From the NCBI GenBank assembly GCA_022571715.1, contig JACZXH010000006.1:1-64000 (forward strand): a stretch of 64,000 nucleotides of DNA. The letters are read 5' to 3'. Both the position numbers and the translations under genes were made by a program. The DNA comes from Bacteroidota bacterium (GTDB lineage Bacteria; Bacteroidota; Bacteroidia; Cytophagales; Cyclobacteriaceae). Positions 22,002 through 27,599 of this stretch are shown piece after piece; position 1 is the stretch's first letter, and each line of letters starts with the position of its first letter. The notes below the pieces were generated by a model that saw only the letters and a program-made list of their open reading frames with translations, did no database searches and was not told where the DNA came from.

Positions 22002-22061
22002 ACCTAACTATATAGCCATTTAACATAAGGGCTGTAATTGTAAACAGAATAGGAGACGTCA

Positions 22062-22081
22062 TAACCGGGAACAACCGGTTA
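22062..22081. repeat. Perfect inverted repeat taaccgg-gaacaa-ccggtta
   Basis: Read directly. Confidence 0.75.
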
Positions 22082-22405
22082 AATACCACCTATCCTTCCG
22101 GACTTTGTGCTGAGCGCGCAGTAATTTTCTCTGCATTTTCGAAACGTCCTGATGATCAGAGTACCGCAATTGCAAATACGACAAACTCAAGGTCTGTTTT
22201 TCAGTGCAGTTGCTGCAGGTAAGCCATCCTGGAATATGAAAAAAAGCAGAACCACCCGATATGTGTTGTAATGTCATATCATAAAGGCGCCTATATTGTA
22301 GCAAATAGCGTTAAAGATTTATTACCTTTAGGTTTCACCAGAAACGATTTGTAGTATTATTTTGGTTGAGAAAGTGAAAACAATGGTGATTTAATAGATC
22401 AATGG

Positions 22406-25400
22406 ATGAGTGAAGAGATTCTTAAGGCATTAATCAAACTTTTCGCAATTATAACCAAGCAGGACGGGGGTGTAACCGAAGAAGAGCGTGATTATATACT
22501 CAGCTTTTTCCAAATGGAGTTAGACCGGGATACCGTAAATGAATATATATCTATTTACGATAAAGCAGTAGGGTACGACAAAGAAAACCCCAACTATCTC
22601 AATAAACCAGGATTAACGCGGGCATCGGTACAAGACACCCTGATGACTCTGACTATATCAAAAAAAATAAATAAAACGCTTTCACAAAAGCAAAAAATAA
22701 TCGTTCTTTTAAGATTACTGGAATTGCTTAAAGCCGACAACCAGTTAACACCTCTGGGCGTTGAGATAATTGACACCATATCAACCATTTTCAATGTTCC
22801 GGCGTCGGATTACGATTTATTAAAACAGTACATCAAATTTGACAATTCCACCGACCTTCTGAGCGAAAGTTTTCTCATTGCAACCCGGTCAAATGGACAA
22901 AACCAACAAGCTACCGGATCCAAAGCCCGTTATAACACAGTTGATATTGATGGTGAAATAGTGTACGTAAGGCTCAAAAGTGTAAACATGTACTTTGTAA
23001 AGTACCACGGAGGTGATGATATCATCCTCAACGGATTCAGTATGAAACAGAACCTGGCTTATTTATTCCCTCCTGGAAGCACGATTAAAGGCCCCCGAAG
23101 TCAGGCCTCATATTACAGCGATGTTTCGAAGTTATTTGAAGCCACCTCACGACAAAGTGAAATATCCTTTAATGCCACCGACGTAACTTTCAGTTTTCCT
23201 AACGGAACCCAGGGTCTTCATAATATTAATATATCGGAATACACCGGATCGCTTATTGGAATTATGGGTGCAAGTGGATCAGGTAAAACCACCCTGCTTA
23301 ATGTACTGGCTGGTATATTAAACCCCCAGTCGGGGGCTATAAAGATAAACGGTTATGATCTTCATACTAAAAATCAGGATCTGGATGGAGTTGTTGGATA
23401 TGTTTCCCAGGATGATCTGTTAATCGAAGAGATTACCGTGTATCAAAATCTTTATTACAACGCCAAACTGTGCCTTAATAAACTGACTGAAAAGGAACTT
23501 CATAAACGTGTGATAAGCACTCTTGACAGCCTGGGCTTAGAACTCACAGCCAACCTGAAGGTTGGGTCTGTGCTGGAAAAAACAATTAGTGGCGGGCAAC
23601 GAAAAAGGCTGAATATTGCACTTGAACTCATCCGCGAGCCCTCCGTTCTTTTTGTTGACGAGCCCACTTCCGGCTTGTCATCCCGCGACAGCGAAAACGT
23701 AATGGACTTGCTGAAAGAGCTAACCCAGAAGGGGAAAATAATTTTTGTAGTCATCCACCAACCTTCATCTGACATATACAAAATGTTTGATAAAATGATC
23801 GTGATGGACACGGGTGGTTTCATGATCTATTATGGCAACCCGGTTGAGGCCATTGCCTATTTTAAGGAAGTAACTCGCCAGGTGGACAGGTTGCGAAGTA
23901 TTTGCCACACGTGTGGAAATGTAACTTCTGAACAGATTTTCAATATTGTTGAAGCGAAGGTTGTAAACGAATTCGGACAGTTTACAAGCAAACGTAAAAT
24001 CACCCCTAAACAATGGTTTGAACTGTATCAGGAGAATTTTACGTTAAAAAAAGTAGAAGATGTAAAAGAAAAACCATACCACTCTCTGGAGCGGCCGGGA
24101 ATTTTAAAACAAATCAGGATTTTCACTACACGTGATTTTCTTTCAAAAATAGCTAACAAGCAATACATTCTAATAAATATTCTGGAGGCACCGTTTCTTG
24201 CCCTAATCCTCGCTATTGTGGTTCGATACCGGAATGCGCCTGGCGGCGAAGCTTACATTTTTCGTTTTAATGAAAATATTCCCGGATTTTTGCTTATGAG
24301 CATCGTGGTAGCGCTATTTATTGGACTTTCTGTAAGTGCTGAGGAAATTATAAAGGACCGTAAAATCCTCAAAAGAGAGCAATTTTTGAATTTAAGCTGG
24401 TCAGGGTACCTGGTTTCCAAAATGATCATTCTCTTCAGTTTATCAGCCATACAAACCATTTCTTTTGTATTTATTGCTCATTCAATTCTCGAAATCAGAG
24501 GAATGTCAACGATGTTCTGGATCATCCTTTTTTCTTCATCATGTATGGCCAATATGATGGGTCTTAACGCATCGTCGGCTTTTAAATCAGCCGTTGCGGT
24601 ATATATTCTTATACCTATCATACTGATTCCTCAAATGATATTCAGCGGACTCATGTTCGATTTCGACAAGCTGAATAAAGCCATCAGTACAAAAGGTACG
24701 GTGCCTGTTATTGCTGATTTTATAACATCAAGATGGGCGCTCGAGGCCATGGCTGTACACCAGTTTATCAATAATGATTATCAAAAACCATTTTATGAAT
24801 ATGAGCAGAAAATCCACCAGGCCGATTTTAAATCTTCTTTCTGGATTCCAGCCATGCGAAACAAAATAAACTTTGTGGCGAATAATTTTTATAAATCGGA
24901 GGATTCCCTGCTTCAGATTAAGGTGAGAAAGGAACTGGATTTCGTTAAAAATGAATTGATAAGAGAAATAATAAAGCCCGAATTACAGGATTTTGATCCT
25001 GTGCTGATTATGTATGAGGATTTATCCCCCAGATTATTCTTGAAACTGAATCAATATTTAAACCAGATCAATAAATGGTATATTGATATAGCGAATCTGG
25101 AAACGCGCAAAATGGAAAAATTAATCATGCTATTTGAAACTGACGAACGTTATAACTACCAGATAAATGAATATAAAAACTTGTTTTTTAATGAAAAATT
25201 ATCGGATTTAGCTCGCAATATTAATATTAAAGACCGGATACTTGAAGTTGACGGCCGCTTCATACAGCAAATCGATGCGGTATTTCATATACCCGAAAAA
25301 CCTGACAATCCGTTGAATTATCGTGCACATTTTTATGCTCCAAAAAAACACTTCCTTAACAGTTATTATGACACACCGGTATTTAATATTGCAGTAATCT

Positions 25401-25486
25401 GGTTTATGACACTTTTACTTTATTTATCAGTTTACTTTAAATTGCCTGAGAAAACGCTAGCTTTATTCGGAAGGCAAATATTTTAA
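22406..25486 (+). CDS. TerB-like domain / ABC ATPase / ABC-2 permease fusion (ABCG-like half-transporter, 1026 aa)
   Basis: N-terminal acidic helical LIKLFAIITKQDGGVTEEERDYILSFF; Walker A GIMGASGSGKTTLLNVLAG; signature TISGGQRKRLNIALEL; Walker B VLFVDEPTSGLSSRDSENV; ABC-2 type hydrophobic segments C-terminal; CxxC (CHTCGN) between NBD and TMD. Confidence 0.9.
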   Translation: MSEEILKALIKLFAIITKQDGGVTEEERDYILSFFQMELDRDTVNEYISIYDKAVGYDKENPNYLNKPGLTRASVQDTLMTLTISKKINKTLSQKQKIIVLLRLLELLKADNQLTPLGVEIIDTISTIFNVPASDYDLLKQYIKFDNSTDLLSESFLIATRSNGQNQQATGSKARYNTVDIDGEIVYVRLKSVNMYFVKYHGGDDIILNGFSMKQNLAYLFPPGSTIKGPRSQASYYSDVSKLFEATSRQSEISFNATDVTFSFPNGTQGLHNINISEYTGSLIGIMGASGSGKTTLLNVLAGILNPQSGAIKINGYDLHTKNQDLDGVVGYVSQDDLLIEEITVYQNLYYNAKLCLNKLTEKELHKRVISTLDSLGLELTANLKVGSVLEKTISGGQRKRLNIALELIREPSVLFVDEPTSGLSSRDSENVMDLLKELTQKGKIIFVVIHQPSSDIYKMFDKMIVMDTGGFMIYYGNPVEAIAYFKEVTRQVDRLRSICHTCGNVTSEQIFNIVEAKVVNEFGQFTSKRKITPKQWFELYQENFTLKKVEDVKEKPYHSLERPGILKQIRIFTTRDFLSKIANKQYILINILEAPFLALILAIVVRYRNAPGGEAYIFRFNENIPGFLLMSIVVALFIGLSVSAEEIIKDRKILKREQFLNLSWSGYLVSKMIILFSLSAIQTISFVFIAHSILEIRGMSTMFWIILFSSSCMANMMGLNASSAFKSAVAVYILIPIILIPQMIFSGLMFDFDKLNKAISTKGTVPVIADFITSRWALEAMAVHQFINNDYQKPFYEYEQKIHQADFKSSFWIPAMRNKINFVANNFYKSEDSLLQIKVRKELDFVKNELIREIIKPELQDFDPVLIMYEDLSPRLFLKLNQYLNQINKWYIDIANLETRKMEKLIMLFETDERYNYQINEYKNLFFNEKLSDLARNINIKDRILEVDGRFIQQIDAVFHIPEKPDNPLNYRAHFYAPKKHFLNSYYDTPVFNIAVIWFMTLLLYLSVYFKLPEKTLALFGRQIF

Positions 25487-25504
25487 AAGACTTGGCTAAG
25501 ATAT

Positions 25505-25534
25505 TGGCTTAAGTTGAATGAATTCTTATTTTTG
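25505..25534 (+). promoter_or_regulatory. Bacteroidota-type promoter, -33 TTG (25505-25507), 19 nt, -7 TATTTTTG (25527-25534)
   Basis: TTG-N19-TAnnTTTG, 20 nt upstream of the ATG at 25555. Confidence 0.55.
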
Positions 25535-25554
25535 TTTAATCAAACATTGAAATC

Positions 25555-26454
25555 ATGAAAATTTATTTATTTCTGGCATTTACCTTACTTTTCTGGGCCT
25601 GCGAATCAAAAAAAGGCCCTACAAAGGAGGATTATGAAGAGAATATAGAAAATCTTGCGGCAGGCATTATTGAAATTTCCGATGAAAATATCCGGAACAT
25701 CATTAATAGTATTCCTTCGCCACTTGAAATTTCATTTCTGATTCATGATACAGGAATTCAGTATGATAAATCAAAACTGAGTTCCGGAAACAATGTTTCC
25801 AGGTACAATTCAAATGATAAACGGGCATTGAACCTGGGTATTTATGGCACAGATCTTGGTTATACTGATATTTACAGTCAAAGCCAGGATGGCATTGAAT
25901 ACCTGACAGCGATTAAAAAACTTGCAGACGATCTAGGAATTGGACAATATTTTAGTTTTGACCTCATCCAGAAGCTAACCGAATCGGGTGATAACCTGGA
26001 TTCGTTACTTTTAGTGACAAGTGATAATTTCAATCGCATAAATGACCATTTCCAGGAACAAAACAGGTCCGCACTCAGCGTGTTACTCCTGCTGGGTGGC
26101 TGGATTGAATCTTTGCATCTTACATGCCAGGTAACATTGCAGCAAATGGATAATAAGAATCTCAGGGAACGAATAGGCGAGCAGAAAATTATACTGGAAA
26201 ATATGACGATATTGCTTGAAGTATATTCAAAAGAAGATCATTATTTTGAAAGTTTAATGAAACAGATGAGTGAACTGGAAGCTGCCTTTGAAGAGGTTGA
26301 AATTGTTTATACCTATGCAGAATCTACTTCTGAAGTAATTGATGGTGTATTGGTAATAAAAGATAACAGTACCAGCGAGGTAAAAATAAGTGACGAAAAC
26401 GTTATTGAAATTGCCAGGGTCACTGAAAATTTTAGAAATAGTGTTACAGAATAA
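25555..26454 (+). CDS. Uncharacterised lipoprotein, 299 aa
   Basis: Signal peptide MKIYLFLAFTLLFWAC with lipobox, then an alpha-helical acidic domain. Confidence 0.85.
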   Translation: MKIYLFLAFTLLFWACESKKGPTKEDYEENIENLAAGIIEISDENIRNIINSIPSPLEISFLIHDTGIQYDKSKLSSGNNVSRYNSNDKRALNLGIYGTDLGYTDIYSQSQDGIEYLTAIKKLADDLGIGQYFSFDLIQKLTESGDNLDSLLLVTSDNFNRINDHFQEQNRSALSVLLLLGGWIESLHLTCQVTLQQMDNKNLRERIGEQKIILENMTILLEVYSKEDHYFESLMKQMSELEAAFEEVEIVYTYAESTSEVIDGVLVIKDNSTSEVKISDENVIEIARVTENFRNSVTE

Positions 26455-26474
26455 TATTTTTTAATTATAGAAAC

Positions 26475-26894
26475 ATGAAAAGATTTTTATTATTTTTTAC
26501 GATTTTACTAATTTCATGGAAGAGTGAAGCCTATTCGCAATGCAATCCGGATACTTATACCACTGAATGTATACCGAAATTAGCAGCAGGATTTAACTTT
26601 CTAAAAGGATATAAAATTGACGGCAAAGGAGGTGAGAAAGCGAAAGTTGAGTATTCCTATGTTTTTACAAAAGGTACGCAGTATATGATAAATATATGCA
26701 GCGGTGAAAGTGAAGGTATCACTATTAATTTGTTCGATTCACGACGAAATCGTGTAGCATCAAGCTATGTAGAAGGGCAGTACTTAAGTGCCATTGCTTT
26801 TCCATGCAATACTACAGGTATATATTATATTAGCTATACATTCGATGAATCATCACAATACTGCGGCGGCAGTGCCCTGGGATTCAGGAAGTGA
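26475..26894 (+). CDS. Uncharacterised secreted Cys-containing protein, 139 aa
   Basis: Signal peptide MKRFLLFFTILLISWKSEAYSQ, mature domain with five Cys and a beta-sandwich-like pattern. Confidence 0.8.
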   Translation: MKRFLLFFTILLISWKSEAYSQCNPDTYTTECIPKLAAGFNFLKGYKIDGKGGEKAKVEYSYVFTKGTQYMINICSGESEGITINLFDSRRNRVASSYVEGQYLSAIAFPCNTTGIYYISYTFDESSQYCGGSALGFRK

Positions 26895-26923
26895 AGTGAA
26901 TTGAATAGCACTGAAGAAAAGTT

Positions 26924-26945
26924 AAGCAGGTTTTCCTGCTTTTTT
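26924..26945 (+). terminator. Intrinsic terminator aagcagg-tttt-cctgctt followed by T-run
   Basis: 7-bp perfect stem, 4-nt loop, T-run (tttttt); downstream of the 26894 stop. Confidence 0.7.
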
Positions 26946-26951
26946 CATTAT

Positions 26952-27599
26952 ATGAAAATAGTTAAAGGAATTATTCAATTCAGCTATAATGCCAGGTATT
27001 TTAAATTTGGCCGGATTGATGATACAACCGTTGAGATTTGGTTTGTGTTTCATGGTTACGGTCAAATGGCAAATTATTTTCTGAGAAAATTCGACTGCAT
27101 TTCTGGCGATTCGATATGTGTGATTGCACCAGAAGGCTTGTCTCGCTTTTATTTGGAAGGTTTTTATGGAAAAACTGGTGCCACATGGATGACCAAAGAA
27201 GAGCGGGAAACAGATATAGAAAATTATTTACACTATTTAAATGCCGTTTACTATAAAGAACTGTCAGGTATCGATAACAAAAATATCCACATTACATTTC
27301 TTGGCTTTTCACAAGGTGCAGCCACTGCCTCCAGATGGGCCGTCAGTAATAGCGAGGGCTTAAACCGACTGATTTTATGGGCTGGCATTTTTCCTCCTGA
27401 CTTGAATGTCGAAGCAGATTCTGATACGTTGAAAAATATTGAAGTGTTAAATATTTATGGTCGCAACGATGCGTATTTGAATAATGATGTCATTATGGAA
27501 CAGAAAGAAATTATCAGGAAATTGAATGTTTATGTTAAGACTATCATTTTTGATGGAGGGCATGAAATGGACTCTGATACGCTCGAATCACTTCGATAG
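26952..27599 (+). CDS. Alpha/beta hydrolase (phospholipase/carboxylesterase-like); ORF track start 26901 considered less likely
   Basis: VWFVFHGYGQMANYF; ITFLGFSQGAATASRWAV (GxSxG); GRNDAYLNND; C-terminal FDGGHEMD. Confidence 0.82.
   Translation: MKIVKGIIQFSYNARYFKFGRIDDTTVEIWFVFHGYGQMANYFLRKFDCISGDSICVIAPEGLSRFYLEGFYGKTGATWMTKEERETDIENYLHYLNAVYYKELSGIDNKNIHITFLGFSQGAATASRWAVSNSEGLNRLILWAGIFPPDLNVEADSDTLKNIEVLNIYGRNDAYLNNDVIMEQKEIIRKLNVYVKTIIFDGGHEMDSDTLESLR

Follow-up and report, generated by a model that had tools for sequence, protein, structure and literature searches.

In Pseudomonas aeruginosa, the diguanylate cyclase SiaD is activated by binding of SiaC, which is encoded next to it; phosphorylation of SiaC on T68 by SiaB prevents this and SiaA reverses the block, and the authors proposed that SiaC (DUF1987) proteins modulate adjacent proteins generally (PMC8457831, PMC7647112). 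In a second system, the STAS protein MlaB has the ATPase MlaF as its partner, and binding is weakened by a T52E phosphomimic (PMC7367683). A third, Rv1747 of Mycobacterium tuberculosis, is an ABC exporter with signaling domains that is linked to the threonine kinase PknF (PMC5549992, PMC3908365). Here we describe a three-gene unit that lies beside a Sia module in most relatives of the bacterium in which we found it. It encodes a TerB-ABC protein, a lipoprotein (LP) and a secreted protein (SP), and is carried in a 64-kb window (the whole stretch analyzed) of contig JACZXH010000006.1 from a bacterium of the Cytophagales. The analysis covers this window and 59 genomes of the same order; "type A" denotes the orthologue group of the window's ABC protein.

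Comparison with these systems shows both shared and distinctive features. In the relatives, as in P. aeruginosa SiaABCD, a PP2C phosphatase, a SiaB-family kinase and a phospho-threonine SiaC are encoded, with SiaC directly before the effector gene. Unlike SiaABCD, the putative effector is a TerB-ABC exporter and not the SiaD cyclase, SiaA is larger (with added GAF and PAS domains), genes for a CheB-domain protein and a GAF protein extend the cluster, and the module is absent from the window genome. MlaFEDB likewise has a small STAS-fold protein on an ABC ATPase and an interface threonine that may be a phospho-switch (PMC7367683), but it belongs to another ABC type, in which the subunits are separate and an MCE protein takes part; its phosphoregulation is undemonstrated, whereas kinase and phosphatase genes lie alongside here. 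Rv1747 and PknF share the fusion of signaling domains to a nucleotide-binding domain (NBD) and membrane domain, and threonine phosphorylation with a linked kinase, but in them FHA takes the place of TerB and a Hanks kinase that of the Sia switch, and no LP, SP or large periplasmic insert is described for them. Finally, the ABCG proteins (ABCG1, ABCG2) also place the NBD before the transmembrane domain (TMD) and are co-linear with residues 243-757 of our protein (residues 65-590 of human ABCG1 in the alignment); they differ from it in its N-terminal TerB domain and linker, its presumed periplasmic insert of ~220 aa before the last helix, and its CxxC in place of NPADF.

The unexpected observation is the genomic pairing, in the relatives, of a Sia phospho-switch with an ABC exporter. 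We found no description of a TerB-ABC or Sia-ABC pairing in the open-access literature. With confidence that is about evenly balanced, we propose that the conserved unit is an ABCG-type (type V) exporter with two dedicated periplasmic partners, whose input in most relatives is the Sia partner switch. A more specific proposal, which we hold more tentatively and at somewhat less than an even chance, is that the exporter may be the direct effector of SiaA-SiaB-SiaC: by analogy, unphosphorylated SiaC would dock on the TerB-linker region and gate ATP hydrolysis, and the exporter would work with LP and SP as two new families.

The Sia module lies upstream of the unit in most relatives but outside the window, and hence could not be seen from the window sequence on which the initial annotation was based. 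A typical type A cluster comprises genes for a CheB-domain protein, a GAF membrane protein, a SiaA-like protein (~1145 aa; Cache-HAMP-GAF-PAS-PP2C), SiaB, SiaC, the ABC protein, LP and SP. In the relatives, SiaB scored 187 bits against a family-model cut-off of 85 and SiaC 132.6 bits against 24.5 (PF09345), and the phosphatase C-terminus of the SiaA-like protein was also identified by family models. The P. aeruginosa-type equivalogs all fell below their cut-offs (SiaA NF038263, 215 versus 700 bits; SiaB NF038264, 86 versus 225; SiaC NF038265, 81 versus 150), implying that these are Sia family members and not orthologues of the Pseudomonas proteins. The switch residues are kept: 28/28 ABC-linked SiaC proteins compared have the NT[A/S]S motif, where T68 of the P. 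aeruginosa protein lies, and 26/26 SiaA-like proteins retain intact PP2C metal motifs. The ABC-linked SiaC proteins mostly form one tree group, apart from most unlinked SiaC of the same genomes; as exceptions, two linked copies (L074, L098) branch lower, and two unlinked copies (L141, L147) fall near them.

The leading alternative is that ABC, LP and SP are indeed a unit but that the Sia module has another target, for example transcription or cyclic di-GMP (c-di-GMP), and sits nearby only because one response is co-regulated. We consider this unlikely, though the most serious of the rivals. Unlinked SiaB and SiaC copies are common in the genomes, LP and SP can occur as a pair away from Sia-ABC (L115-L117), and the module is missing from the window lineage, all of which such a view would accommodate. 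Arguing in the other direction is the position of SiaC immediately 5' of the ABC gene: it holds for ~30 of 38 type A loci, which span many families, and for 0/36 type B/C loci. At L066 and L071, moreover, SiaC remains beside the ABC gene although LP and SP are elsewhere, and no cyclase gene stands between SiaC and ABC in the typical cluster (remoter neighbors were not all profiled for GGDEF).

The window genome itself has a single SiaC, which is divergent and away from the ABC locus, and SiaB was undetected in the window genus and G008 (G000, G001, G002, G008). Because these genomes branch within the Sia-linked portion of the tree, the absence is most simply a loss. As a separate observation, unlinked SiaC genes repeatedly lie beside open reading frames (ORFs) of 92 aa and ~545 aa (L131, L132, L134, L136, L137, L139, L144), and the same pair accompanies the window genome's only SiaC.

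The three proteins are inherited together. At least one ABC copy occurs in 45/59 genomes of the order; the window genome carries three, all full-length. The nearest named genomes are Flammeovirgaceae bacterium SZUA-230 (a family that NCBI places in the Cytophagales) and Bacteroidetes bacterium B34T3L8. Across the phylum, a copy was found at E <= 1e-80 in 4/148 genomes. In a tree of 72 proteins, type A separates from types B and C. The type A ABC protein and type-A-like LP occupy an identical set of 37 of the 59 genomes, and SP occurs in the same 37 plus G006 and G045; the Fisher test of this co-occurrence ignores kinship among the genomes. LP and SP homologues usually adjoin the ABC gene, and the co-occurrence persists where the genes are scattered (G037, G044, G054, G055). 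In most loci the type B ABC gene is directly preceded by an LP paralogue of its own, with gene order reversed, and the window genome carries such a pair on C135; type C has no adjacent LP. LP thus travels with the transporter, as a component would. The shared genome set, maintained even when the genes are apart, together with the LP paralogues of type B, leads us to conclude that the three genes form a conserved three-part unit, as the initial annotation had anticipated. That annotation had offered partners or substrates as roles for the two exported proteins, and the way LP paralogues follow ABC paralogues favors dedicated partners.

LP and SP are two uncharacterized protein families strictly co-inherited with the ABC protein. 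The lipobox Cys16 of LP is invariant in 56 sequences, and SP has a cleavable signal peptide, so both exported proteins have their own signals, as first described. SP had also been called Cys-rich; with five Cys, three of them invariant (C23, C111, C130), this is a slight overstatement. The LP model (predicted local distance difference test, pLDDT, 83) has helices and four C-terminal strands; searches of the PDB and of viral models matched nothing. The SP model (pLDDT 88) is an eight-stranded sandwich whose best match to GOLD/PPC folds (E 4e-5, TM-score 0.45 by query) indicates a class resemblance only; this class is found in extracellular and periplasmic binding domains. A relationship to C1q was set aside, the match being short, local and not collinear with the domain, in favor of the generic GOLD/PPC sandwich. 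SP stands without type A ABC or LP at L121 (G006) and L119 (G045), and in G006 its position is syntenic, giving the impression that the ABC and LP genes next to it were lost.

The export of both proteins and the tight linkage of their genes to the ABC gene would also fit an arrangement in which LP, SP or both are the cargo, which the ABC protein exports or places at the cell surface. We regard this as improbable: each protein carries its own Sec-type signal, and LP paralogues accompany ABC paralogues, whether 5' or 3' of the gene, as a subunit would. ABCG-type (type V) transporters, moreover, typically move lipids and amphiphiles.

The architecture of the ABC protein supports its assignment to the ABCG type (Table 1). 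The three ORFs were found where the initial annotation had placed them. The complete ABC ATPase of the first protein, its ABC-2 permease and its insert of ~220 aa before the last transmembrane (TM) helix were borne out by motifs, Pfam matches and TM prediction. The catalytic motifs of the NBD are all intact: Walker A (288), signature (394), Walker B/DEP (414) and H-switch (450). An NBD followed by an ABC-2 TMD on one chain is the arrangement of an ABCG-type (type V) half-transporter, and the protein is predicted probably to act as a homodimer. Both Cys of the CHTC motif are conserved in ~100% of relatives; the motif lies in the cytosolic connector and is not a separate envelope redox motif. 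By analogy with ABCG proteins, the insert is predicted to be a periplasmic, enlarged extracellular loop 3 (EL3), and no solved structural relative of it was found. A defense assignment by PADLOC was rejected, since matches were confined to the ATPase core.

Table 1. Features of the three-gene unit and its 3' flank, with window coordinates
Feature	Position	Strand	Evidence or description
TerB-ABC exporter, 1026 aa, type A half-transporter	22406..25486	+	ORF; Pfam; orthologues in 37/59 genomes
TerB domain, residues 8-140	22427..22825	+	PF05099, 30.1 bits versus Pfam cut-off 24.4
Beta-rich linker domain, residues ~150-256	22853..23173	+	No Pfam match
ABC ATPase (NBD), residues ~256-480	23171..23845	+	PF00005, E 7e-31
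Cytosolic CxxC (CHTC), residues 500-503	23903..23914	+	NBD-TMD connector, at ABCG NPADF position (ABCG1 alignment)
ABC-2/ABCG-like permease, TM helices 5' of insert	24161..24676	+	PF01061 (ABC2_membrane), E 2e-19, residues 569-758
Insert of ~220 aa, residues ~770-990	24713..25375	+	Between predicted TM helices 729-747 and 992-1010 (last)
LP lipoprotein, 299 aa	25555..26454	+	Alpha-helical, four C-terminal strands; no PDB fold match
SP secreted protein, 139 aa	26475..26894	+	Eight-stranded beta-sandwich, GOLD/PPC class; conserved Cys; C-terminal LGFKR-like end
Terminator-like hairpin, T tail	26924..26946	+	AAGCAGG-TTTT-CCTGCTT then TTTT; 3' of three-gene unit

The N-terminal domain, initially described as TerB-like, is confirmed as TerB by sequence profile: it scores above the Pfam cut-off and is matched in 51/51 family members scanned (E <= 0.1). 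The beta-rich linker that follows is also present as first noted, without a Pfam match. An FHA identity for the linker was rejected, the best resemblance (Mek1 chain 5yyx, E 0.14) being non-significant. The initial annotation further raised an envelope-stress or tellurite/metal role, whose sole basis was the TerB name; although the domain is genuine, and although SiaA and SiaD of P. aeruginosa act in aggregation induced by sodium dodecyl sulfate (SDS) and tellurite (PMC7647112), TerB domains occur in many non-resistance proteins and no TerC/TerD/TerZ/TerY-type genes were noticed in the neighborhoods (neighbors were clustered, not all profiled), and the stress reading is unsupported and very improbable.

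We return, then, to an exporter under Sia control, for which the following model can be drawn. The ABC protein would move a lipid or another envelope component through the inner membrane, the cargo being suggested by analogy with type V transporters, and the enlarged periplasmic loop, LP and SP would receive or place that component, perhaps as a periplasmic complex. In such a complex SP would be a soluble beta-sandwich binding protein and LP a membrane-anchored, mostly helical lipoprotein. The cytosolic TerB-linker region may be the control input. A Cache/GAF/PAS sensor with a PP2C domain (the SiaA-like protein) would dephosphorylate SiaC, the SiaB kinase would rephosphorylate it, and unphosphorylated SiaC would bind the exporter and set its activity, as modeled on SiaC-SiaD and MlaB-MlaF. 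By this analogy the exporter was most likely gated ancestrally by unphosphorylated SiaC, which would probably act through the N-terminal region. The window lineage kept the exporter, LP and SP and most probably lost the switch.

Co-variation analysis provides a hint, at the level of sequence, that the linker is involved: its co-variation is weak with the Sia proteins (SiaA 0.53, SiaB 0.30, SiaC 0.27) and near zero with LP, SP and four control neighbors. Several observations weigh against the model, however. No excess of co-variation linked SiaC to TerB, and type C ABC proteins, which lack Sia neighbors, conserve TerB as well. The ABC/LP/SP unit persists in the four genomes without detected SiaB, implying that the Sia switch is not needed for its core function, and SP is retained in G006 and G045 without the type A ABC protein. 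Co-variation of LP and SP with the periplasmic loop was seen, but two unrelated neighboring genes gave the same signal, which is therefore not specific and which we have not used as evidence. A faster change of TerB after Sia loss was suggestive, 6/7 Sia-less or unlinked type A sequences ranking high, but was not kept: two linked sequences rank equally far up, and in type C TerB is retained in the absence of Sia.

If the model is correct, these loci would be a natural pairing of a phosphorylated STAS-like protein, with its kinase and phosphatase genes, beside an ABC exporter. A question posed for MlaB, namely whether a small STAS protein switches ABC transporters through its own phosphorylation, would thereby become testable. 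The two co-inherited uncharacterized families gain a context, and it is suggested that SiaC outside Pseudomonas may act on effectors other than diguanylate cyclases.

The surroundings of the ABC paralogues vary. The type B ABC gene and LP paralogue are followed by a gene for an ElyC/DUF218 envelope biogenesis-like protein at L079, L081, L084, L089, L092, L096 and others; at L043 in the window genome an S9 peptidase gene follows instead. Several type C ABC genes lie directly 3' of a gene for a tail-specific (S41, Prc-like) protease (L095, L097, L110), and some of these precede a small lipoprotein-like gene.

In the window, the gaps between ABC and LP and between LP and SP are 68 bp and 20 bp. 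Terminator-like hairpins such as that 3' of SP are about as frequent in the region as in shuffled sequence, a count not above chance. The next gene encodes an alpha/beta hydrolase (Abhydrolase_2; 26901-27599), whose likely start, ATG 26952, is past the hairpin; roughly half of all type A loci have such a hydrolase gene next after SP. Directly 5' of the ABC gene, a SiaC remnant was considered and rejected, the matches being weak (19-26%) and on the opposite strand. This place is taken by a decayed cytidine deaminase gene (~22040-22354, + strand); elsewhere the deaminase is found as an intact 162-aa copy just 5' of SP (L121, 7643-8131) and in a truncated 108-aa form at L045.

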